From positions 1-64,000 of the forward strand of contig DAHUYQ010000028.1 in the NCBI GenBank assembly GCA_027315115.1: 64,000 nt of DNA, in the 5' to 3' direction. The translations under genes and the position numbers were made by a program. Source of the DNA: Solirubrobacterales bacterium (GTDB lineage: Bacteria; Actinomycetota; Thermoleophilia; Solirubrobacterales; Solirubrobacteraceae). Shown piece after piece: positions 26,700 through 38,362 of the stretch (its first letter is position 1; each line of letters starts with the position of its first letter). The notes beneath the pieces are model-generated. The model was not told the DNA's origin and did not search any database. It saw only the letters and a list, made by a program, of their open reading frames with translations.

Positions 26700-27134
26700 C
26701 TAGAAGACGACCTCGGCGCCCGCGCCGACGCCGAGCAGGTCCGCGTCGTCAGCGCCGGGCTCCTGTCCGTCGGGCTCCCACTCCTGCCCCTCGCCTCCGG
26801 GCCCGTCGAGGAACTCGACCGAGTCGGCCACGATGCTCACCGCCTGGCGGCGCTGCTGGTCATCCGTCTCCCATTCGCGCCATTCCAGACGGCCGTCGAT
26901 CGCCACCTTGGAGCCCTTGCTGATGTAGCGCTGGACGTTCTCACCCTGCGGGCCGAACACGCTGACGTCGAAGAAGTTCGGCCTCTCGCTGTAGACGCCG
27001 TCCTCTTCCTTTCTGATCCCGTTGCACGCGACGCGCAGGCTGCACACCGTGCGCCCGGACGGGATGGCCCTCGTCTCCGGGTCGCGTGTGAGGCGCCCGA
27101 CGAGCACGACGCGGTTGATGTTCGAGTGGGCCAT
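26700..27134 (-). CDS. ssb: Single-stranded DNA-binding protein
   Basis: OB-fold protein of 144 residues; INRVVLVGRLTRDPETR and FFDVSVFGPQGENVQRYISKG are typical of bacterial Ssb. AAGGAGA lies just upstream of the ATG at 27134. It is not between rpsF and rpsR as the housekeeping ssb usually is, and it lies directly after the replication-relaxation gene. The tail is acidic but ends GAEVVF instead of the DDDIPF-type tip that recruits partners, so it may be an accessory Ssb serving transfer or plasmid-style replication. Confidence 0.93.
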   Translation of the reverse strand: MAHSNINRVVLVGRLTRDPETRAIPSGRTVCSLRVACNGIRKEEDGVYSERPNFFDVSVFGPQGENVQRYISKGSKVAIDGRLEWREWETDDQQRRQAVSIVADSVEFLDGPGGEGQEWEPDGQEPGADDADLLGVGAGAEVVF

Positions 27135-27172: not shown

Positions 27173-27928
27173 CTAGGCATCGTTTGGGATGGCATTGCCC
27201 GCAGGCCCGGGAACGCAGCCCAACGGCACCGCCATAACCCGCTCCTGCGCGCCCGCCTTGCGGATCGCGCGATCGAGGGGGCGCTCCACCTCCGGCGCCG
27301 CCACGTAGATGACGCCGGCGACCCGATCGCAACGCGCCCACGCCCTGCAGATCCCCTCCAGCCGACGCGCGGCCTTCACCGTCAGCTCGACCTCGACCGC
27401 CACGGGCCGCGATCCGGGGCGCGTCGATCTGCGCCAGAGCACCAGGTCGGGCCGGTGCAGCAGCGGCTCGCCTGCCGCGCCGCGTCCCACGATCGCGCTG
27501 GCCAAACTGCCGCCGTGCTCGGCCTCCTGCTGCCTGAGCATGCGCTCGCCGCTGACCGTGTGTTCCGGGTAGCACCTCTCCAGGCCGGCGGCCACAGCCG
27601 CGCAGAGCATCAGGTGGGAGGCGGCGCCTGCGCTCACCCGGCACGGCTGCAGGGGACAGTCGACCGCCCGCATGCCGGAGCGCGTGGCGGTGTAGAGAGT
27701 CGGCCCGCCGTGTAGGGGCCTGCAGGACTGGAGCCAACCCGCCCTGAGGGCGCCTTGCAGCCGACCGCGGGCTGCGGCGAGCGAGACGTCGAGGCGGTAG
27801 GCGAGCGCGTCCGCCGTCACGGCGCCAAGGTCTGCGGTCCAGCGCACGATCGAGAGCCGCTCTTGGCTTCGGCTCCGGGCGGGTGCGGCGCGCCCGGGTG
27901 TGGATGTGGCACGAGACTCGTCTTGCAT
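27173..27928 (-). CDS. Replication-relaxation family protein (small, stand-alone)
   Basis: 251 residues. The N-terminal part (about 25-90; LSIVRWTADLGAVTADALAYRL) is a winged-helix-like domain. The C-terminal part contains the Replic_Relax (PF13814-like) signature VAVEVELTVKAARRLEGICRAW followed by VAGVIYVAAPEVERPL. Such proteins come from actinobacterial plasmids and conjugative elements and are thought to act in plasmid replication or relaxation; activity is not well characterised. The ATG at 27928 has AAAGGAAG upstream. It precedes ssb by 38 bp. Confidence 0.78.
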   Translation of the reverse strand: MQDESRATSTPGRAAPARSRSQERLSIVRWTADLGAVTADALAYRLDVSLAAARGRLQGALRAGWLQSCRPLHGGPTLYTATRSGMRAVDCPLQPCRVSAGAASHLMLCAAVAAGLERCYPEHTVSGERMLRQQEAEHGGSLASAIVGRGAAGEPLLHRPDLVLWRRSTRPGSRPVAVEVELTVKAARRLEGICRAWARCDRVAGVIYVAAPEVERPLDRAIRKAGAQERVMAVPLGCVPGPAGNAIPNDA

Positions 27929-28068: not shown

Positions 28069-29679
28069 CTATCGACGCCGCGGCACCGCGAGCATCCGCA
28101 CGACCCGCACGCACCTGGTGGGGCCGTCGTGGACGATCACGACCGCCTGGCCCGGCGCCAGCGAGGTCACGCGCTCGGGAGCGACCCGCGGCATCTGTGT
28201 GGGCCTGTAGGTGCGCGTGCCGGTGCTGGCGATGCTCGCGCTCCAGGACCGCCGGCTGCCGGCGAGCCGAGACACCCATTCGGCGGACTCGGGATTGACC
28301 TGCCGGTGGGAGATCGTCGATGTGAGGTTGCCGACGACCTGCCTGAGCAGGTTCTCGCGACCCCGGAGCTGCAGGTCGGAGATCTCCTGCGTGCCGAGAA
28401 CGAGGCTCATACCCGCGCCCCTGGCTCTGCCGAAGAGACCGCCGACATTTTGCGCCGCGAGCGCCGCGAACTCGTCGATCACGGCGATCGACGGCACGGG
28501 CGCACGCTGCAACGCAGACGCCGCCGTGAGCAGATCGAGCACGATCGCCCCCGCGAGCATCTGCATCATCAGAGGACGGCTGTCGGCGCGCAGCCTGAAC
28601 AGCACGACCGACCCGGACTGCAGAGCTTCGAGAAGTCCGAAGCTCCGCGCGGCCTGGTTGCTCGGATCGAGCCAGCGGCCGACGTCGGACTCCGCCAGAA
28701 TCGCCAGCCGGTCCCTGACCCCCGAGAGGTCGCTGCGCTGGCGCGCGGTGAGAGAGTCGAGGTAGGCGTAATCGTCGGCGACCTCTGCCTCCGGCAGCCC
28801 GCGCAGGACGAGCTCCAGCCGATCGGGGTCCAGATGCTCGGCCAGCGATTGGACGCTGAGCGCGATTCCTGCCCTGCGCAGCACCCGGACCTCTCGCCCG
28901 AGAAAGCGCTGCGCCTGGCGCAGGTAATGCGGCTCGGTGAACTGCTCGCCCGCCAGCGCCTTGTCGGCCACCTCGCCGTCGCTGCCGGCGGCGTAGGGGT
29001 TGTAGGCGCATGGCCCATCCGGCGACCATTCGAAGAGCTGCTTGCCCGCTTTGCGTGCCGCAGCGCCGACGCTCGCAGCCAGATCCGGGTCGTCCTTCGG
29101 GTCGATGACGATGGCCGGCATGCCCGCCTCGATGGCACGCACCACGAGCCAGGTCAGCGTGACGGTCTTCCCCGAGCCGGCGGCGCCGGTCACCAGCGTG
29201 TTCGCCCCGCCGGCTCCGCCTTGGACGGGCACTTCGGCAGTGCGCATCTCGGCGTCATAGCCCACAAGCAACGCGTTGCCCGTGAACCAGCGACCGCTGT
29301 AGGCGCGCCAGTACCGCACCGCGATGCGAACCGAGAGCATCGCGACCGCCACGGGGCCGCGCGGCTGCGTGCCGCCGTGATCCGCCTCGGCCAGGTCCTC
29401 GTGCTCGCGCCCGACGCCGGCTCTTGTGGCCAGCACCCCGGCGATCCCGACGGGCCATGCAAACGTGCCGAGCACGCCCGGCGTCAGCAGCGCGAGCACG
29501 CTCGCGAACGGCCCCCAGGTCCAGCGCAGCCGCAGCGCACGCATCGCGCGGAGCCCAAGCCATCCGAGCAGCAGCCCGATCGCGAGGTGCTCCCCGGCGC
29601 CGAGCAGCCATTGCAGCACGGACTCCAACTGAGCCCGCGATTCCGTTCCCGTTGCCGGGAAACCAGTCGACGATCGCAT
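28069..29679 (-). CDS. VirD4/TraG-like coupling ATPase (type IV secretion/conjugation type)
   Basis: 536 residues. Hydrophobic segments at about 22-44 and 56-88 anchor it to the membrane. The P-loop is GAAGSGKT (165-172), followed by AIVIDPKDDPDL, a form common in TraG/TraD proteins; Walker B is SIAVIDEFAAL (397-407). SLVLGTQEISDL is the typical sensor region. Its role is inferred: pumping or delivering DNA-protein complexes for transfer. Start ATG 29679 with AAAGGAG five bases upstream. No mating-pore genes (VirB6/VirB8/VirB9) are visible in the window. Neighbours are a replication-relaxation protein and ssb downstream. Confidence 0.85.
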   Translation of the reverse strand: MRSSTGFPATGTESRAQLESVLQWLLGAGEHLAIGLLLGWLGLRAMRALRLRWTWGPFASVLALLTPGVLGTFAWPVGIAGVLATRAGVGREHEDLAEADHGGTQPRGPVAVAMLSVRIAVRYWRAYSGRWFTGNALLVGYDAEMRTAEVPVQGGAGGANTLVTGAAGSGKTVTLTWLVVRAIEAGMPAIVIDPKDDPDLAASVGAAARKAGKQLFEWSPDGPCAYNPYAAGSDGEVADKALAGEQFTEPHYLRQAQRFLGREVRVLRRAGIALSVQSLAEHLDPDRLELVLRGLPEAEVADDYAYLDSLTARQRSDLSGVRDRLAILAESDVGRWLDPSNQAARSFGLLEALQSGSVVLFRLRADSRPLMMQMLAGAIVLDLLTAASALQRAPVPSIAVIDEFAALAAQNVGGLFGRARGAGMSLVLGTQEISDLQLRGRENLLRQVVGNLTSTISHRQVNPESAEWVSRLAGSRRSWSASIASTGTRTYRPTQMPRVAPERVTSLAPGQAVVIVHDGPTRCVRVVRMLAVPRRR

Positions 29680-29694
29680 CGTCGCTCCTTTCCC

Positions 29695-29734
29695 GCGGAC
29701 GGCGAGAGCCGTCCGCGCCTTTAGGGCGGACGGC
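29695..29734 (-). promoter_or_regulatory. Mutually exclusive hairpins before the coupling-ATPase SD
   Basis: GCGGACGGC occurs at 29695-29703 and again at 29726-29734, with its exact complement GCCGTCCGC at 29708-29716 between them. The middle strand can pair with either copy (4-nt or 9-nt loop). On the minus-strand RNA the second hairpin ends 4 nt before the AAAGGAG ribosome site of the 28069-29679 gene, so pairing choice could expose or crowd the SD. Confidence 0.65.
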
Positions 29735-29933
29735 GGCCAGCGCCGCCGCCCGATCGTACGGCGGGCTGGAAAGCCCACCCTCGACCAGCCAGCGGCATGC
29801 CGCAGGCCAGAGCAAGATTTCAGGACCCGGCCGGAAGCCCGGGTCCGTCAGGAAGCCTCAGGCTGCTCGCGCCGGCACGCATGTGGGCGTGCCGGCGATG
29901 GGGAGCAGCATTCAGAGAACGGCGTGGGGAGCC

Positions 29934-29989
29934 GCGCCGACATGGCGCGGACGCGGACGTGGCGCCGACATGGCGCGGACGCGGACGTG
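29934..29989. repeat. 28-bp perfect tandem repeat (two copies)
   Basis: Copies at 29934-29961 and 29962-29989, each starting GCGCCGACATGG and ending GCGGACGTG, 20 bp beyond the stop of the response-regulator gene. Followed by shorter GCGCGG repeats. Confidence 0.88.
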
Positions 29990-30009
29990 GCGCGGGCGCG
30001 GGCGCTGGT

Positions 30010-30828
30010 CTACATCAGCCTGTAGCCGACCCCGCGGACGTTGACGATCCAATGTCGCCCGTCGACGGACGCCAGCTTGCGCCGCAGGCGACAGGCGTGG
30101 CTGTCGAGCGTGCGAGTGCTGCAGCCGGATCGATAGCCCCAGATGCGCAGCAGCAGATCCTGCTTGAGGAACACCCGATCGGGTGCGCCTGCGAGCTCCA
30201 CCAGCAGCTCGTACTCCATCCGACGAAGCTGCAGACGATCTCCGCGCAGCCGTGCCACACGCGCCTCGCGGTCGATCACCAGCCCCGCGAGCTGCACGCT
30301 GACGCAGGTGATGGCCGCGGTGGCGGACCTGCGCAGCAGGGCTTGCACGCGAGCACGCAGCTCCAGCAGCCGCGGAGGTCGGTGCAGGAAGTCGTCGGCA
30401 CCCGCCTCGAAGGCTCGCAGCATGTCGAGCTCTTGTGCGGCCGACCCGAGCACGATCACGGGCAGGCTGGGAGCCGCGGAATCGCTTCGGGATGGCGTGC
30501 CCGCAAGCAGGCGAACCTGCTCCACCAGATCGAAGGCCGCTCGCTCGCTCTCCAGCGCGCCAAAGATCGCCAGTGCCGGCCGGCGCATCTCGGCAAGCGC
30601 GCATGCGTGCTGGGAGCTGCGCGCCATGACGGGCTCGTATCCGTCTGCGCGCAGTTGCGCGGCGATCGATCCCGCGATGTCTGGATCAAGCTCGGCGACC
30701 AGGATCTGGATCGCTCCCGGCGTCGGCGCCTCGGCAGCGAGACCGACGCGGCCGCCCGATGCCGCCAGCGAGAGCGCCGTGCCCTGTTCTTGCGGCAGGC
30801 GTTGCCTGCTCAGTTGCAGACCGCTCAT
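30010..30828 (-). CDS. OmpR/PhoB-type response regulator with degenerate receiver
   Basis: 272 residues. Receiver-like domain at about 41-165 (IQILVAELDPDIAGSIAAQL, VIVLGSAAQELDMLRAFEAGADDFL) and a winged-helix effector at 175-272 ending WIVNVRGVGYRL, diagnostic for OmpR. The phospho-acceptor Asp is missing (PALAIFGALES where PDLILLDxMLP is expected) and the conserved Lys is Arg (LHRPP for TKPF), so it is probably not controlled by phosphorylation. No histidine kinase is nearby. It overlaps the upstream 30825-31802 gene by 4 nt, so the two proteins are made together. Confidence 0.86.
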   Translation of the reverse strand: MSGLQLSRQRLPQEQGTALSLAASGGRVGLAAEAPTPGAIQILVAELDPDIAGSIAAQLRADGYEPVMARSSQHACALAEMRRPALAIFGALESERAAFDLVEQVRLLAGTPSRSDSAAPSLPVIVLGSAAQELDMLRAFEAGADDFLHRPPRLLELRARVQALLRRSATAAITCVSVQLAGLVIDREARVARLRGDRLQLRRMEYELLVELAGAPDRVFLKQDLLLRIWGYRSGCSTRTLDSHACRLRRKLASVDGRHWIVNVRGVGYRLM

Positions 30829-31802
30829 GCGATCTCGGCCTCACGAGGCGGTATCCCAAGGCCCTCGCGAGCGATGAGGGCAAGCACCTCGGAGTGCACC
30901 CACGGCGAGGGCAGCGCAGCGCCACCCTCGCACACGAGTCCGAGTCGCCGTGCAAGCCATGTGGTTTCGCCGCTGAAGAAGCCACGGCGGTCACGCTTGA
31001 CGCGCCCGCAACGCAGCGCGATCTCGCTCATGCTGAGATCCGAGGTCTCCACCGCCCGCAGTGCGGCTTCGCGCAGCCCACGGTTGAGCACCGTCGGGCT
31101 GGCGTTGAGGCGATGCAGCTCCAGACAGAGCGTGGCGACCGACATGCGACGGCCGCGACGATGACGCTGGATCGCCGCGGCTGTCAATCGCCTCACGGGC
31201 TCATAGCTTTCGATCGCGCCGACGACGTCACGGACGCTGACCGGCTCGTGCGGCAGGTCGGCCCCGATGCTTTGCCCGCACCATCTGAGCTCCTGCGTAG
31301 ATGCCCGTCCGGGCACCATCGCGAGCAGGTAGCGAACGCCACGTGCCTCGCAGAGATCGTGCTCGGCGGCGCCCCCGTTGGTCGCGGCCAGCACCTGTCC
31401 CTGCAGCTCTGTGGGCAGTGGGCTGCGCAGATCAGAGCTCACGACACACCTGCACCTGCTGCGCTCGCTGCCGCCCAGGTACAGGTCGCATATGAGCTTG
31501 GCGTTCTCGATCGGCTCGTCCGAGGCCAGGTGGGCAAGCAGCCGTCGGTCGCCACGGGTCAGTCGATCTCGATCGATGACCAGGCGGCTGCCGGAGACGC
31601 CTTGGCAGCAGATGATCTCTCGCGGTCGGCCCGTGGCGGCCAGATAGCCGGCGAGCAGCTCGACGTCCAGCTCGGCGTCGGGCGCGTGCAGGTCGGCTGC
31701 GCGGGTGCTCTTGCGAGCGTCGACGTGACGACGTCCCTGGCATGAGGACGCCGGTGCGGCTGCCGTCGCGGATCGGCGCGTGCGCGGGTGCGTGGTGCTC
31801 AT
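30825..31802 (-). CDS. Unknown protein with C-terminal HTH-like region
   Basis: 325 residues, no family recognised. The middle has a Cys-rich stretch (LICDLYLGGSERSRCRCVV) and no membrane segments. The C-terminal third (LSMSEIALRCGRVKRDRRGFFSGETTWLARRLG region) looks like a helix-turn-helix, so DNA binding is possible. AGGAG lies upstream of the ATG at 31802. Co-translated with the degenerate response regulator; together they may regulate the transfer-like block. A 24-bp perfect palindrome lies 107 bp upstream of its start. Confidence 0.65.
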   Translation of the reverse strand: MSTTHPRTRRSATAAAPASSCQGRRHVDARKSTRAADLHAPDAELDVELLAGYLAATGRPREIICCQGVSGSRLVIDRDRLTRGDRRLLAHLASDEPIENAKLICDLYLGGSERSRCRCVVSSDLRSPLPTELQGQVLAATNGGAAEHDLCEARGVRYLLAMVPGRASTQELRWCGQSIGADLPHEPVSVRDVVGAIESYEPVRRLTAAAIQRHRRGRRMSVATLCLELHRLNASPTVLNRGLREAALRAVETSDLSMSEIALRCGRVKRDRRGFFSGETTWLARRLGLVCEGGAALPSPWVHSEVLALIAREGLGIPPREAEIA

Positions 31803-32345: not shown

Positions 32346-35300
32346 CTACGGCGTCTCACCCGAATCGCAGCCGAGCAGCGTCGCGATGCACCGGGTCTCG
32401 AGGACCCGCTCATGAGAGCCGGCGGCCACGGCCACGGCCGCCAGATGGGGCGGGATGCTCGGAACCGCATAGCCTCCGAGGAGGCCCTCGTGCACGTCGC
32501 GCTCGGCGACGAAGAGGATGCGTTGCCGGCCTGTGTACTCCCAGCGCTCCGGCTGCTCGCCGGCGTATGCGCGGCTGGCCAGCAACTGGCGGTCGGCCTG
32601 GCGAGCGCACTCCCTGGCACGCGAGCGGTCGCGGCAGATGAACACGACGGCCGGGATCACGCCCTGGCTCCCGTAGCGGCGGGTGTGGAGCGACCAGCCG
32701 GCGAGAAAGTGCTCGTAGCGAGCCAGCTTCGCCTGCCAGGCATGCGCAGCGCAGCGGTCGTCGAGCTCCACGAGCAGGTCGCCGCCCTCGCTCCCGGAGG
32801 CGGATCGGGCGCCGGCCAGCTCCAATCTCACGCATGGACGCACGGTCTCGAAACGCTCGACTTCGACGAGGCTCCCGTCAGGCTCTGCACGCAGAAAGTT
32901 GTGCGGCGCCCGGCCGTCGGGCAGACGCAGCCCCGCCGGGCCGATCGGCGCGGCCGACTCGCCGCGAGTCGCACGCGGGGGGCTCAACGCGGCGCCATCC
33001 GCACCGACCCACCGCAGCGGCCCGCCGCCGAGCGCGCGCTCGAGCGCCAGCGCCCACCCCGCGACGCGCAGCTCGCGCCGAACGGCGCTGAGCGTGGTGC
33101 TCGCATCCTCGGAGCCGGACAGACGCAGCGACGCCTCCTGGATCCGGTCCTGCGGCAGTCGAGCCGCAAGCGCCTCGCGCCCGGCCTGCGTGATCGAGCA
33201 GCACATCGGCGCGCCGCCGCCGTCGCGCGCGTGGAACTGCACGCGCTCGATCAGGCCGCCGTCCGCGAGCTTCTTCAGACGCCGCTGCGTGCCCGTCAGC
33301 GCGTTGCTGCCCGCGTGCCTGCGGTGCAGTTGGGTGCTGAGCACGTGCCTGAAGATCGCAAGGGTCACGAGCAGTTGCAGGTCCTTGACGTCGAGCTTGC
33401 CGGGCGCTGGAACCCTCGCATCGGCAGCGGCGCGCGCCACGCGTCGGACGCTCGAGGATCTGTCGAGCAGCGCCAGCTCGCGATAGCTGGCGGCAGCGGT
33501 CTCAGGCAACGGCGGCAGGGCGGTACGGCGCGCGGCGGGCCCGGTGGCAGGCTCACGCCCAGGGGGCCGGCTCGCCTCCCCGGACCGCTCGGACCGCTCG
33601 GACCGTGTCTTGCCGGCGTCAGTCTCGGCCTGGCGGCTTGGTGCGCGTTCGGCCACACCGTGCGGCTCCTGCGAAGCGTCCGCGGGAACGGCATCGGCGT
33701 GGACGGCAGCAGCCCAATGCCTGCTGCTGAGATCGCTCAGGTACTGCCCACCTCGCTGCCGCTGGCGCTCGGCGTGCCACGCGATCCGCTCGGGGTCGAC
33801 GCTCAGGGGCAGCGTCTGCGCCACGAACGGCGGCTGGCGACCGGAGGGGGTGCTCCAGCTCGCTATCGCATGGTGCTTTGGCAGATGCAGACGTGCGTCC
33901 GGGTGCCCGAGCGCTGAGATCCGTTCGATCCGCGGGCGCACCACATCCGAGAACTGAGCCATCATCAAGCTCGCCGAGTCGCGTGCGTCCTTGACCGACG
34001 CGGTCGCAAAGTAGACGCGGTGCGCGAAGAGCGCGTCGAGCTGGTCGCGAACCTCACGCTCGACCCACTGAGCGTTGACCTGCCAGCAGGCCACGGTCTC
34101 CAAGCCGGCCGAGCGCTTGAGGGCCATCGTCTCGGCGAAGCCGCGGTTGAGCACGAGCGGCGCCTCGTCGACCTTCAAGGCGACTGTCGCCCTGTGCTGT
34201 GGATCGAGGTGGTCCTGTTGGCGGGCCAGCGCCGCGTCAAGCATCCCGACCAGGAGCTGCATCAGGACGGTCGTGTTGCCGGCGCCCATGCTGCCGAGAG
34301 CGCCCTTGACGACCAGCACGTGCTGTTCCTGGATCACCTGCTCGAAGTCCACCCGCAGCGAGTCGTTGAGCAGCACGCGCTTGATCGACGGAGAGTTCAA
34401 CAGCCGCGCGAGCTTGTTGACCGGCGCGTCGAGCTTGGCCGTAGTGGTGCTGCGAGCGTCGGCGAGCTGGGCGCTCAGCTCGGCCGTGAAGAAGTCGGAG
34501 ATCTCCTTCAGCTCCGGCATCTCGCGCACCCGTGCGCCGACGCGAGCGCGGTAGGCATATCCATCGGGCCCGACCGACAGCAGACGGGCGGCGTCCCACA
34601 GCGTCGAGTCGCGGTCGTATGCGAGCACCGCGATGATGGCGTTGCGCAGGTAGCGGTCCGACGATGCGCGGATGTCCGCGTCGCTGAAGAGGGTCTTCAG
34701 AGCGGCCACGACGTAGTCGGCGATCACGTCCGCGGGCGCGTCGACGGCCAGCGGGTTGAAGCCGCAGGTGGGGTGCGCGAAGTCGAGCAGCGTGCAGATG
34801 CGCTGCTCGGGAACGTTGCTGAGCGCCGCCTCCGCCGCGTCTCCCTTCGGATCCAGCAGGATCACCGCGCAGTTGCTCCGCGCGAGGTCCTCGATCATCG
34901 ATGCGACCAGGTAGCTCGTCTTGCCCTGCTCCACGGTGCCGACCACGGCCGTGTTCTGGCGACGCAGCGCCGGGTGTATCGACACCGGCCCCTGGGAGTC
35001 CCTGAGCGTCCCGACGCCGTCTGCCGGCCGCATGATCGCCGCCGGCGCCGGGGCCACCGGGATGGGGCTGCGAGAGAGAGGCACGCTCAGGAAGTCCAGC
35101 GAGGGCAGATGCCACATCGCGGCGAGCTCGGTGGACGCGAACACTCCTTTGCGCGTGTCGCGCAGCGGGTTGCCCTCGCCACGCATCACACGCTCGCTGT
35201 ACATGCCCAGCAGGCCGTGGCGGATCGTCGTCCCGCGCTCGACGAGCCGGTTCTCGGCCACTTCGGCGCGCAACGTGGAGGCGATCCGCTCACAGCTCGC

Positions 35301-36062
35301 GCGGTCGCCGGCGATCACGCGCACGTCGACGAAGAACAGCGGGCGGTGCTGGACGCTGAGACCGCCGCGAAGCTCGACGTCCTGGACCATCGACCTGTCG
35401 AGCCTGGGCTCCATCACGCCCTCTCCACGCTCACGCGAGACGAGGCGCTCACGATGTCTGTAGAGACGCCTGGCGTGCCGCTCGAACCCGATCGATGCGG
35501 GCGTCATCGCAAGCTGCACGAATGCCGGCCCGCCGCTTGCCGCGAGGGTGCGCAGCAGACGGTTCATGAACGGCTCTCGCTCGTGCTCGAAGCGGTCGAT
35601 CGCCTTCACCCTGTTGATGAAGAGCTGCTCCTTCTTCAGGCGCAGGACCGCCGGCGGCGGGCCGACCCGTGCGACGGAGGACTGCAGGCGGCAGTTGGGG
35701 TAGGCGGCGCGAAGGGCCGCGAGCACCATCTTCTGGGAGCCCACCGGGCAGCAGACCGCAAGCCATGCCTGATCGGCGATGTGAGCCTCCAGCGCGATCG
35801 AGGGCTGGCCCCTGAGCAGGCGCCTCCACCAGCGCGCCAGCATCCGCTTGTGCAGCATCTCGAATGCCGCGACGATCGCCTCCGCGCTTGCATCCTCGCC
35901 GCGATAGGGGACGACGCGGAGCCGCACGTACCGCCGGCCCCGCCTACGCAGCGCGCGACCGCAGAGCACCGCGAGGCCGAGCCCCAGCACGCTCACAGCC
36001 GCCGGGAGCAGCATCCACTGCACTCGCGACAGCCCAGACAGCGATGCTCCGGCGGGAATCAC
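32346..36062 (-). CDS. Fusion: conjugative ATPase (TraG/VirB4-like) plus replication-relaxation domain
   Basis: 1238 residues. A membrane segment at about 14-36; an unassigned domain (about 45-330); an ATPase with P-loop GTVEQGKT (375-382), the TraG-like VILLDPKGD (400-408) and Walker B TVALKVDEAP (626-635); an Arg/Pro-rich linker (about 770-880); then a winged-helix (LDVKDLQLLVTLAIFRHVLS, 890-945) and a replication-relaxation-like domain (about 1060-1235; GSLVEVERFE, CAAHAWQAKLARYEHFLAGW). Separate ATPase and relaxation proteins also exist nearby, so this looks like both partners in one chain. Role in DNA mobilisation is inferred. GTG start at 36062, without SD; an internal ATG at 36014 is an alternative. 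Confidence 0.8.
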   Translation of the reverse strand: MIPAGASLSGLSRVQWMLLPAAVSVLGLGLAVLCGRALRRRGRRYVRLRVVPYRGEDASAEAIVAAFEMLHKRMLARWWRRLLRGQPSIALEAHIADQAWLAVCCPVGSQKMVLAALRAAYPNCRLQSSVARVGPPPAVLRLKKEQLFINRVKAIDRFEHEREPFMNRLLRTLAASGGPAFVQLAMTPASIGFERHARRLYRHRERLVSRERGEGVMEPRLDRSMVQDVELRGGLSVQHRPLFFVDVRVIAGDRASCERIASTLRAEVAENRLVERGTTIRHGLLGMYSERVMRGEGNPLRDTRKGVFASTELAAMWHLPSLDFLSVPLSRSPIPVAPAPAAIMRPADGVGTLRDSQGPVSIHPALRRQNTAVVGTVEQGKTSYLVASMIEDLARSNCAVILLDPKGDAAEAALSNVPEQRICTLLDFAHPTCGFNPLAVDAPADVIADYVVAALKTLFSDADIRASSDRYLRNAIIAVLAYDRDSTLWDAARLLSVGPDGYAYRARVGARVREMPELKEISDFFTAELSAQLADARSTTTAKLDAPVNKLARLLNSPSIKRVLLNDSLRVDFEQVIQEQHVLVVKGALGSMGAGNTTVLMQLLVGMLDAALARQQDHLDPQHRATVALKVDEAPLVLNRGFAETMALKRSAGLETVACWQVNAQWVEREVRDQLDALFAHRVYFATASVKDARDSASLMMAQFSDVVRPRIERISALGHPDARLHLPKHHAIASWSTPSGRQPPFVAQTLPLSVDPERIAWHAERQRQRGGQYLSDLSSRHWAAAVHADAVPADASQEPHGVAERAPSRQAETDAGKTRSERSERSGEASRPPGREPATGPAARRTALPPLPETAAASYRELALLDRSSSVRRVARAAADARVPAPGKLDVKDLQLLVTLAIFRHVLSTQLHRRHAGSNALTGTQRRLKKLADGGLIERVQFHARDGGGAPMCCSITQAGREALAARLPQDRIQEASLRLSGSEDASTTLSAVRRELRVAGWALALERALGGGPLRWVGADGAALSPPRATRGESAAPIGPAGLRLPDGRAPHNFLRAEPDGSLVEVERFETVRPCVRLELAGARSASGSEGGDLLVELDDRCAAHAWQAKLARYEHFLAGWSLHTRRYGSQGVIPAVVFICRDRSRARECARQADRQLLASRAYAGEQPERWEYTGRQRILFVAERDVHEGLLGGYAVPSIPPHLAAVAVAAGSHERVLETRCIATLLGCDSGETP

Positions 36063-36174: not shown

Positions 36175-37167
36175 TCAGAGCGGGCGCGCGGCCCGCTCCA
36201 CAGCGCGGCCGCGATCGGTGAGGTGCCATTCGTTGCAGGCGCCGTGGCGCTGCCCGGCGCCTGTGTTGCCGAGCAGCTCGAGGCGCTCCAGGCGAGCCAG
36301 CAGCTTGGACATCTGGCCCTGGTCGGCGATCCCGGCCCCATCCGCCACCTCACGGTTGCTCGCGCCGGGATGCTCGCCGACGAAGGAGAGCACGCGCATC
36401 GTCCTGTACGTCAGGCGCATGTCGATGCCGCCGAGCGGGTCCTTGCGCGACTGCGGCTTGCGCCGGCGTCCTTTGGGCCCCGGCCGGGAGAGCTCTTCGC
36501 CGGCGGCTCTGCTGCCCTTGTAGGGCAGGACGATCAAGCTCATCAGAGGACCGAGCAGGTTGACCAGTGGAGCATGGCTGCGTTCCAGCAGTCGCGTGTG
36601 GAGCACCGTCAGAGCTGCGCCTACGACGCCTTCGACGGCGATATCGCCGGCCTGCCCCTTTCGGGACCGCGAGCCCCGCTGTGCCGCCGGCTCCCCGTCT
36701 GCCACGACTCGCTTGAGCCGCTCGATCACCCTCGCGCGGCTTTCGAGCACCCGCGGCCCCGCGCCGAGCGCGTCCACGATGCATATGCGTGCCAACGCGG
36801 GCTGATCGTCCATGAAGCTCAGGATCGCGAGCAGGCCCGCGCGCACTGCGTCGCGCCAGTTCGACTGCTCCGCGTAGGCCTCGCTCGCCAGGGCGCCGAT
36901 CCGCTCTACGGCCTCGTCGAAGACGGCCAGGAAGCAGTCTTCGCGGTCCTCGAAGAGGTCGTAGAAGGTCTTGCGCGAGACCTTCGCCCTGGTGATCACC
37001 TGCGCCACGGTGAGATGCGAGTACCCGACTTCCTCGACCACGTCGACGGTCGCACCGAGCAGGCGTCCTCGCTGGATCTCCGCCACCTGGACGCGCGGCA
37101 TCGTCCGCGGGCCAGGCCGCAGCCGCTGCACCGCCCCGGTCCTGCCGGTCTGCGCTATCGAAGCCAT
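36175..37167 (-). CDS. TetR-family regulator with C-terminal winged helix
   Basis: 330 residues with two DNA-binding modules. The TetR helix-turn-helix is at about 45-70 (LTVAQVITRAKVSRKTFYDLFEDRED), with the usual ligand domain to about 225. The last 90 residues are a MarR-like winged helix (GASNREVADGAGIADQGQMS, LLARLERLELLGNTG). The ligand is unknown. It starts the minus-strand block that ends at ssb and may control it. A 21-bp inverted repeat upstream (37217-37237) is a natural autoregulatory operator. ATG at 37167. Confidence 0.85.
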   Translation of the reverse strand: MASIAQTGRTGAVQRLRPGPRTMPRVQVAEIQRGRLLGATVDVVEEVGYSHLTVAQVITRAKVSRKTFYDLFEDREDCFLAVFDEAVERIGALASEAYAEQSNWRDAVRAGLLAILSFMDDQPALARICIVDALGAGPRVLESRARVIERLKRVVADGEPAAQRGSRSRKGQAGDIAVEGVVGAALTVLHTRLLERSHAPLVNLLGPLMSLIVLPYKGSRAAGEELSRPGPKGRRRKPQSRKDPLGGIDMRLTYRTMRVLSFVGEHPGASNREVADGAGIADQGQMSKLLARLERLELLGNTGAGQRHGACNEWHLTDRGRAVERAARPL

Positions 37168-37657: not shown

Positions 37658-37730
37658 TACCGCCAACGGGATTCGAACCCGTGTTACCGCCGTGAGAGGG
37701 CGGCGTCCTAGTCCCCTAGACGATGGCGGC
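37658..37730 (-). tRNA. tRNA-Glu(CTC)
   Basis: 73-nt cloverleaf on the minus strand: acceptor GCCGCCA/TGGCGGT (with a G-U first pair typical of tRNA-Glu), anticodon stem CCGCC/GGCGG with loop CTCTCAC giving anticodon CTC, T-arm ACGGGTTCGAATCCCGT, discriminator A. No encoded CCA. Its 3' end faces the accessory block. Confidence 0.96.

Positions 37731-37866: not shown

Positions 37867-38362
<496 letters not shown>

Follow-up and report, generated by a model that had tools for sequence, protein, structure and literature searches.

Type IV secretion system (T4SS) channels receive relaxosomes through coupling proteins (PMC12857230). The structural basis on which a coupling protein captures its relaxosome is still largely unresolved. 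Among the relaxases, those of the MOBC type are PD-(D/E)xK-type enzymes, whose prototype TraX carries an N-terminal winged helix (PMC12857230), and in PMC5357655 the MOBC superfamily is entered under the Pfam family PF13814 (Replic_Relax). The subject here is an open reading frame (ORF) at positions 32346-36062 (minus strand) of a 64,000-nucleotide window, namely positions 1 to 64,000 of contig DAHUYQ010000028.1 in assembly GCA_027315115.1 of a Solirubrobacterales bacterium (Actinomycetota, Thermoleophilia; source genome G000; 3.3 Mb in 65 contigs). Profile matches, alignment and a structure model identify its product as a coupling protein-type (T4CP-type) ATPase and a MOBC/Replic_Relax-like domain joined in one chain of 1238 residues. 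With a probability of about 0.6, this fusion represents a membrane-anchored VirD4/TrwB-type DNA pump with a relaxosome-docking domain that serves a chromosomal MPF_FA/Tcp-like T4SS. A natural covalent fusion of this kind would freeze the contact between the two partners and make it testable in a single polypeptide.

The gene begins with a GTG at 36062 and stops at 32346, without an internal stop and with third-position G+C content of the coding type from end to end; its coordinates and length had been given correctly in a preliminary description made from the DNA letters and their translations. It was compared with an alignment of 17 homologues, 16 from genomes of the same genus (G000 included) and one from another genus. 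From the N- to the C-terminus, the protein comprises a transmembrane helix, a repeated beta-alpha region, a P-loop ATPase, a linker, a winged helix and a MOBC/Replic_Relax-type half, all minus-strand features in the coordinates that follow. The transmembrane helix is predicted at residues 17-35 (35958-36014; hydropathy 2.19), and N-terminal hydropathy peaks, two in most cases, are found in 17/17 homologues, in keeping with the membrane anchor of coupling proteins. The P-loop lies exactly where it had been placed, with a Walker A motif GTVEQGKT at residues 375-382 (34917-34940) in which G375, G380 and K381 are conserved in 17/17 homologues and residue 382 is S or T; it is followed by DPKGD at residues 404-408, likewise kept in 17/17, and by the Walker B motif ALKVDE at residues 628-633 (34164-34181), whose D632 and E633 are also present throughout. 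The Arg/Pro-rich linker noticed earlier can be delimited to residues ~775-885 (33408-33740) and is variable, with no conserved internal start in the alignment. Since the fusion is a single ORF in all 17 aligned homologues while its linker varies in length, a sequencing artefact is very unlikely, and the fusion of motor and Replic_Relax domain proposed in the preliminary description is real. A GTG at residue 803 has a Shine-Dalgarno-like 5/6 match, but independent translation of the C-terminus from such a start was rejected, as four sites of this kind were found over the 17 homologues against 3.0 expected.

A fold search with the ATPase returned TrwB (Z 18.3; rmsd 5.0 over 345 residues), DndH-C (18.1), VirB4 (17.8), DotL (17.1) and HerA (14.9), and the intact Walker A and B motifs lie within a TrwB-like nucleotide-binding domain, as in coupling proteins. 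The SXT_TraD profile matches at E 1e-7, and the Pfam TrwB profile, which reaches 13.5 bits on the fusion in the window (cut-off 20.5), scores above its cut-off in the relatives L107, L113 and L027. The TraD-type match, the TrwB matches in close relatives and the presence of a separate VirB4 in the operons described below make a VirD4/TrwB-type coupling protein a more likely identity for the motor than a VirB4. The initial assignment to a TraG/VirB4-style ATPase thus holds for a conjugative P-loop motor and less well for the VirB4 type, of which the genome has a separate representative.

The assignment of the C-terminal half, in which a winged helix and a Replic_Relax-like domain had also been proposed, was borne out. 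PF13814 finds a full-length domain (E 1.3e-8), with a score of 32 bits in the whole fusion protein (cut-off 25.3) and of 35.6 bits in the isolated C-terminus, where the match spans profile positions 4-177 of 191, and all 17 homologues match; comparison with stand-alone mobile Replic_Relax proteins by hhalign gave a probability of 99.2% (E 1.9e-19, 309 columns). In the AlphaFold2 (AF2) model of the C-terminus (predicted local distance difference test, pLDDT, 84.6), residues 886-976 (33135-33407) form a winged helix that matches MarR-type winged helix-turn-helix (wHTH) domains in the fold search with Z up to 9.6, and the order of winged helix then Replic_Relax domain is that of MOBC proteins. 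The strand and helix order of the half as modelled is compatible with a PD-(D/E)xK fold; the PDB matches spanned the wHTH only, and a PDB sequence search with the fusion profile gave nothing useful. In the alignment the motif runs RP[D]...E-x-D...K, with R and P invariant, D1101 in 17/17 and E1099 in 15/17 homologues (E1099-x-D1101, the second half of the PD-(D/E)xK-like motif, 32760-32768). The first catalytic Asp is absent from seven of the 17, including the G000 protein, where the RPD motif at residues 1075-1077 (32832-32840) is RPC through a Cys codon (TGC); it is kept in 10/17, in 9/11 fusions outside this set and in 5/5 stand-alone Replic_Relax proteins. Because the PD...ExD/E residues of MOBC relaxases are thus incomplete in the window protein, the domain is classified here as MOBC-like rather than as a relaxase. 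Judging from these columns, the domain in the genus probably no longer cleaves DNA and still binds it, so that it would dock DNA rather than nick it.

The fusion also occurs as one frame in 11 further loci, including that of an isolate, Conexibacter sp. CPCC 205762 (L072). In four mobile-type loci (L027, L033, L034 and L108), the two halves are adjoining separate genes, as the preliminary description had suggested looking for in relatives, with a four-base overlap in L033 and L034. A variant arrangement is seen in L107 (9719-13872), L113 (4093-9362) and L114 (10331-13621), where an ATPase-MOBC ORF begins shortly ahead of the P-loop. Two of these loci, L107 and L113, have the N-terminal domain encoded apart in an overlapping gene, with ATPase and MOBC domain in one chain. 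The three arrangements (separate, ATPase-MOBC with a separate N-terminal domain, and fully fused) constitute natural evidence of linkage. In a tree of the ATPase domain, the fused proteins all fall on one side of one branch, weakly supported (57/94; 60% of bootstrap trees), and a single fusion event behind them is possible on this basis. Solo Replic_Relax genes without a coupling ATPase were also observed beside tyrosine integrases in L109, L110 and L115, which are possibly small mobilizable elements.

Relatives of the source organism connect the fusion to a transfer channel. In Conexibacter L072, it directly follows VirB4 (AAA_10, 3e-30), VirB6-like and SLT/peptidase genes, and it lies near VirB4 in L102, L104, L107, L111, L113 and L114. 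Orthologues of the Conexibacter-type VirB4 can be detected in 19/24 genomes of the genus, including G000, where the T4SS is on another contig (C26) and so does not adjoin the coupling protein gene as it does in the relatives. The VirB4 operon of the genus encodes TcpC (5e-11), TcpE (4e-4, below the Pfam cut-off, seen in L123), a VirB6-like protein assigned from synteny and length rather than a profile, and SLT proteins, and in L120/L123 VirB4, TcpC, TcpE, VirB6-like protein and cell-wall hydrolase occur together, the set that characterizes the MPF_FA (Tcp) type. Of 12 T4SS operon loci retrieved, lon adjoins in 11 and an FAD reductase gene in 10. Thus, in Conexibacter and other Solirubrobacterales the fusion gene ends the channel operon, whereas in the genus a chromosomal Tcp-type T4SS, usually by lon, is accompanied by a separate chromosomal coupling locus near hrcA-dnaJ. 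An earlier conclusion that the genus has no T4SS came from the VirB4 of a different integrative and conjugative element (ICE) clade, present in 3/31 genomes, and is refuted by these orthologues. The chromosomal T4SS operon is preceded directly by a gene for a conserved sigma-factor-like protein (L120 13831-14409 and counterparts). On contig C45 (L043), G000 carries a second ICE-like T4SS of a different kind (VirB4, VirB6-like, CHAP), with an ssb gene on the contig as well; no coupling protein was found within the stretch retrieved.

In a set of 121 genomes from the order, 10 have both the fusion and the chromosomal-type VirB4 against 3.1 expected (Fisher p 4e-5), and the association persists when the genus is left out (p 0.013). 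Pairwise distances of the fusion, VirB4, the second ATPase of the coupling locus (TraD2) and Lon correlate (rho 0.57-0.81; Mantel p 0.001-0.007), a pattern that vertical inheritance would produce; fixed loci together with this co-divergence support chromosomal, vertical inheritance. It is on this point that the coupling locus departs from an ordinary ICE or its remnant, that is, a stranded chromosomal conjugation module in which the fusion would be the coupling protein of the element family and have no host function. Such an origin fits the presence of the fusion within T4SS modules of several other Solirubrobacterales, the integrases carried by mobile relatives, the tRNA genes close to the locus, and the regulators and two coupling ATPases, which look like ICE cargo. 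However, no integrase was seen adjoining the coupling locus, its housekeeping neighbours (ssb, maoC, hrcA and dnaJ) keep the same order in three genera of the family, the locus is kept by 19/24 genomes of the genus, the ATPase motifs are invariant and the sequence distances follow those of Lon, so that an ICE origin without host function is considered unlikely.

Several observations weigh against a coupling protein that serves the chromosomal T4SS. The fold search does not separate TrwB, DndH-C and VirB4, whose scores are tied, the N-terminal AF2 model is of modest to poor quality (pLDDT 67.8), and the nuclease half has no solved-structure match, the match list having been filled by the wHTH, which is no indication of a new fold. 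Presence of the fusion and of VirB4 is not significantly associated within the genus (p 0.27); the T4SS stands without the fusion in G016 (92% complete), and the coupling locus without a VirB4 match at E<=1e-60 in G024 (93%; another genus). Distances of DnaJ do not follow those of the fusion (six species), the genomes of the genus appear to be metagenome-assembled, and no origin of transfer (oriT) was identified, only short repeats of a kind expected by chance. Genomes such as G024, in which the locus lacks a detectable VirB4, would suit a T4SS-independent DNA-processing or repair pump acting on chromosomal DNA in the manner of HerA-NurA or Thermus TdtA-NurA, as would the HerA match in the fold search, the linkage of ssb and of another ATPase gene to the fusion, and the precedent of Thermus transjugation, in which a HerA-like pump and a nuclease operate without a T4SS (PMC5365140). 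This appears improbable, nevertheless, since in relatives the fusion stands directly after VirB4/VirB6 genes, its N-terminus is predicted to be transmembrane and the fused domain retains the Asp in only 10/17 homologues. A coupling protein of the chromosomal T4SS is therefore preferred.

In the window, the coupling locus contains, in order, genes for a TetR/MarR regulator, the fusion, an unfamiliar protein, a PhoB-like regulator, a second TraD-like ATPase and a small wHTH protein, followed by ssb, maoC, hrcA and dnaJ; many genomes of the genus, and two further genera of the family, repeat most of this order, with the fusion relocated away from the locus in some genomes. The regulator upstream of the fusion (36175-37167, minus strand; profile match and synteny) combines an N-terminal TetR-type HTH with a C-terminal MarR-like winged helix and is conserved in the genus; tRNA-Glu (minus strand, 37658-37730) and tRNA-Leu (plus strand, 37867-37950) genes lie just past it at the edge of the locus. 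The protein at 30825-31802 (minus strand), syntenic and of no known family (perhaps an HTH protein), travels with the locus and has a strongly conserved C-terminus, LNRxLRE...SGETSWLARR...PWIHSDVLALIAR. The PhoB-like response regulator (30010-30828, minus strand; profile matches and synteny) has no adjoining kinase, and its receiver domain scores just under the Pfam cut-off. Three tandem 28-nt GC-rich repeats (29934-30006) lie upstream of the second ATPase. Control of the LexA type was dismissed, as the GAAC-N4-GTTC site is absent from the window.

The second coupling ATPase (28069-29778, minus strand; 569 residues, unfused) belongs to the TraD/VirD4 family, with PF10412 and PF12696 both above cut-off here and matched by 12/12 homologues, in agreement with the separate ATPase claimed for this block. 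Both ATPases are present in 18 genomes of the genus and neither in three, the remaining three being mixed (Fisher p 0.018). Among PADLOC defence models, mad8 also gives a match to the second ATPase (E 1e-15), which probably reflects shared TraD ancestry. An anti-phage defence module based on HerA/TraD-like ATPases could account for that match and for the DndH-C score of the fused ATPase, yet the fused protein itself has only a weak HerA match among defence models (0.006), the other four proteins tested have none and relatives place the fusion in a T4SS context, all of which makes a defence function very unlikely.

The small wHTH protein (27173-27928, minus strand), described initially as a separate Replic_Relax protein, has no PF13814 match. 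What stands of that description is a weak MobC match, NCBIfam MobC_subf being detected in 11/12 homologues far under its cut-off (best 2.8e-5), and an hhalign probability of 54% (E 1.3e-4) to the fused domain; against mobile Replic_Relax proteins, the probability is 1.3% (E 0.039). As R159-P160-D161, E179, E181 and K185 are invariant in 12/12 homologues, this protein could be the active nickase. The adjacent ssb (26700-27134, minus strand; synteny and genome search) is one of three genes for single-strand DNA-binding proteins in the genome.

From these elements, we infer that the channel and coupling loci form one machine, in which DNA would first be nicked at a transfer origin. The nick would probably be made by a catalytically active partner, such as the small MobC-like protein or another relaxase, because the fused domain often lacks the catalytic residue. 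The fused wHTH/MOBC-like domain would then keep the nicked DNA at the pump, by analogy hexameric, and ATP hydrolysis would drive the strand into the VirB4/VirB6/TcpC/TcpE channel. A pump fused to a relaxase-derived domain would hold DNA permanently tethered and so, as the preliminary description supposed, may couple strand handling directly to transport. ComEC (PF03772) was not detected in 24 genomes of the genus (control 10/14), on which account transjugation into competent recipients was rejected; this leaves the T4SS route as the only DNA exchange machine detected, other routes having been searched non-exhaustively. Since fusion and channel genes occupy fixed chromosomal sites with no obvious plasmid or transposon, these uncultured soil actinobacteria may have adopted conjugation for DNA exchange, and this apparatus could plausibly exchange chromosomal DNA. 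The fuller proposal, that a genus in which ComEC is not detected has domesticated a conjugation-type T4SS and exchanges its own chromosomal DNA through it, using a pump with a catalytically retired relaxase as its DNA dock, is put forward tentatively and is somewhat doubtful.

The components are all familiar, and it is the coupling protein-MOBC combination that is new as far as the open literature shows: the open-access literature, to which the search was confined (subscription papers lay outside it), yielded no coupling protein-relaxase/MOBC fusion, no order-wide recurrence of one and no chromosomally fixed bacterial T4SS containing one. With CloDF13/pAD1-type MOBC relaxases (PF13814) and their coupling proteins, the fusion shares the wHTH and PF13814 domain, and the neighbouring coupling and relaxase-like genes of those systems resemble L027, L033, L034 and L108; here, by contrast, the two form one chain, the first catalytic Asp is lost in the G000 protein and in 6/16 others, and no oriT was identified. 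The TrwB-like nucleotide-binding fold, Walker A and B motifs, membrane anchor and, in relatives, T4SS gene context are those of TrwB/VirD4/TraD, from which the fusion differs in its extra N-terminal domains, the genus P-loop G(T/A)VEQGK(S/T) and the C-terminal MOBC-like domain. Tcp/Tn916-type (MPF_FA) systems have a comparable operon with TcpC, TcpE, VirB4, VirB6-like and SLT/CHAP proteins, whereas the system of the genus is chromosomally fixed, has its coupling gene at another locus and employs MOBC-like rather than MOBT/MOBM DNA processing. Thermus transjugation by TdtA/NurA likewise relies on a HerA-superfamily pump with a nuclease partner for donation of chromosomal DNA, but involves neither a T4SS nor a fusion (PMC5365140). 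The nearest chromosomal T4SS precedents are the archaeal Ced/Ted systems for domesticated DNA exchange (PMC9905601) and the Patescibacteria T4SS (PMC12102498). The former are similarly chromosomal, with a lineage-conserved T4SS core and no evident mobile element, while the present system is bacterial and retains coupling protein and relaxase-like domains; the latter is also chromosomally conserved and of monoderm type, but there the relaxase is mostly absent, whereas the present pump has a relaxase-like domain as part of its own chain.

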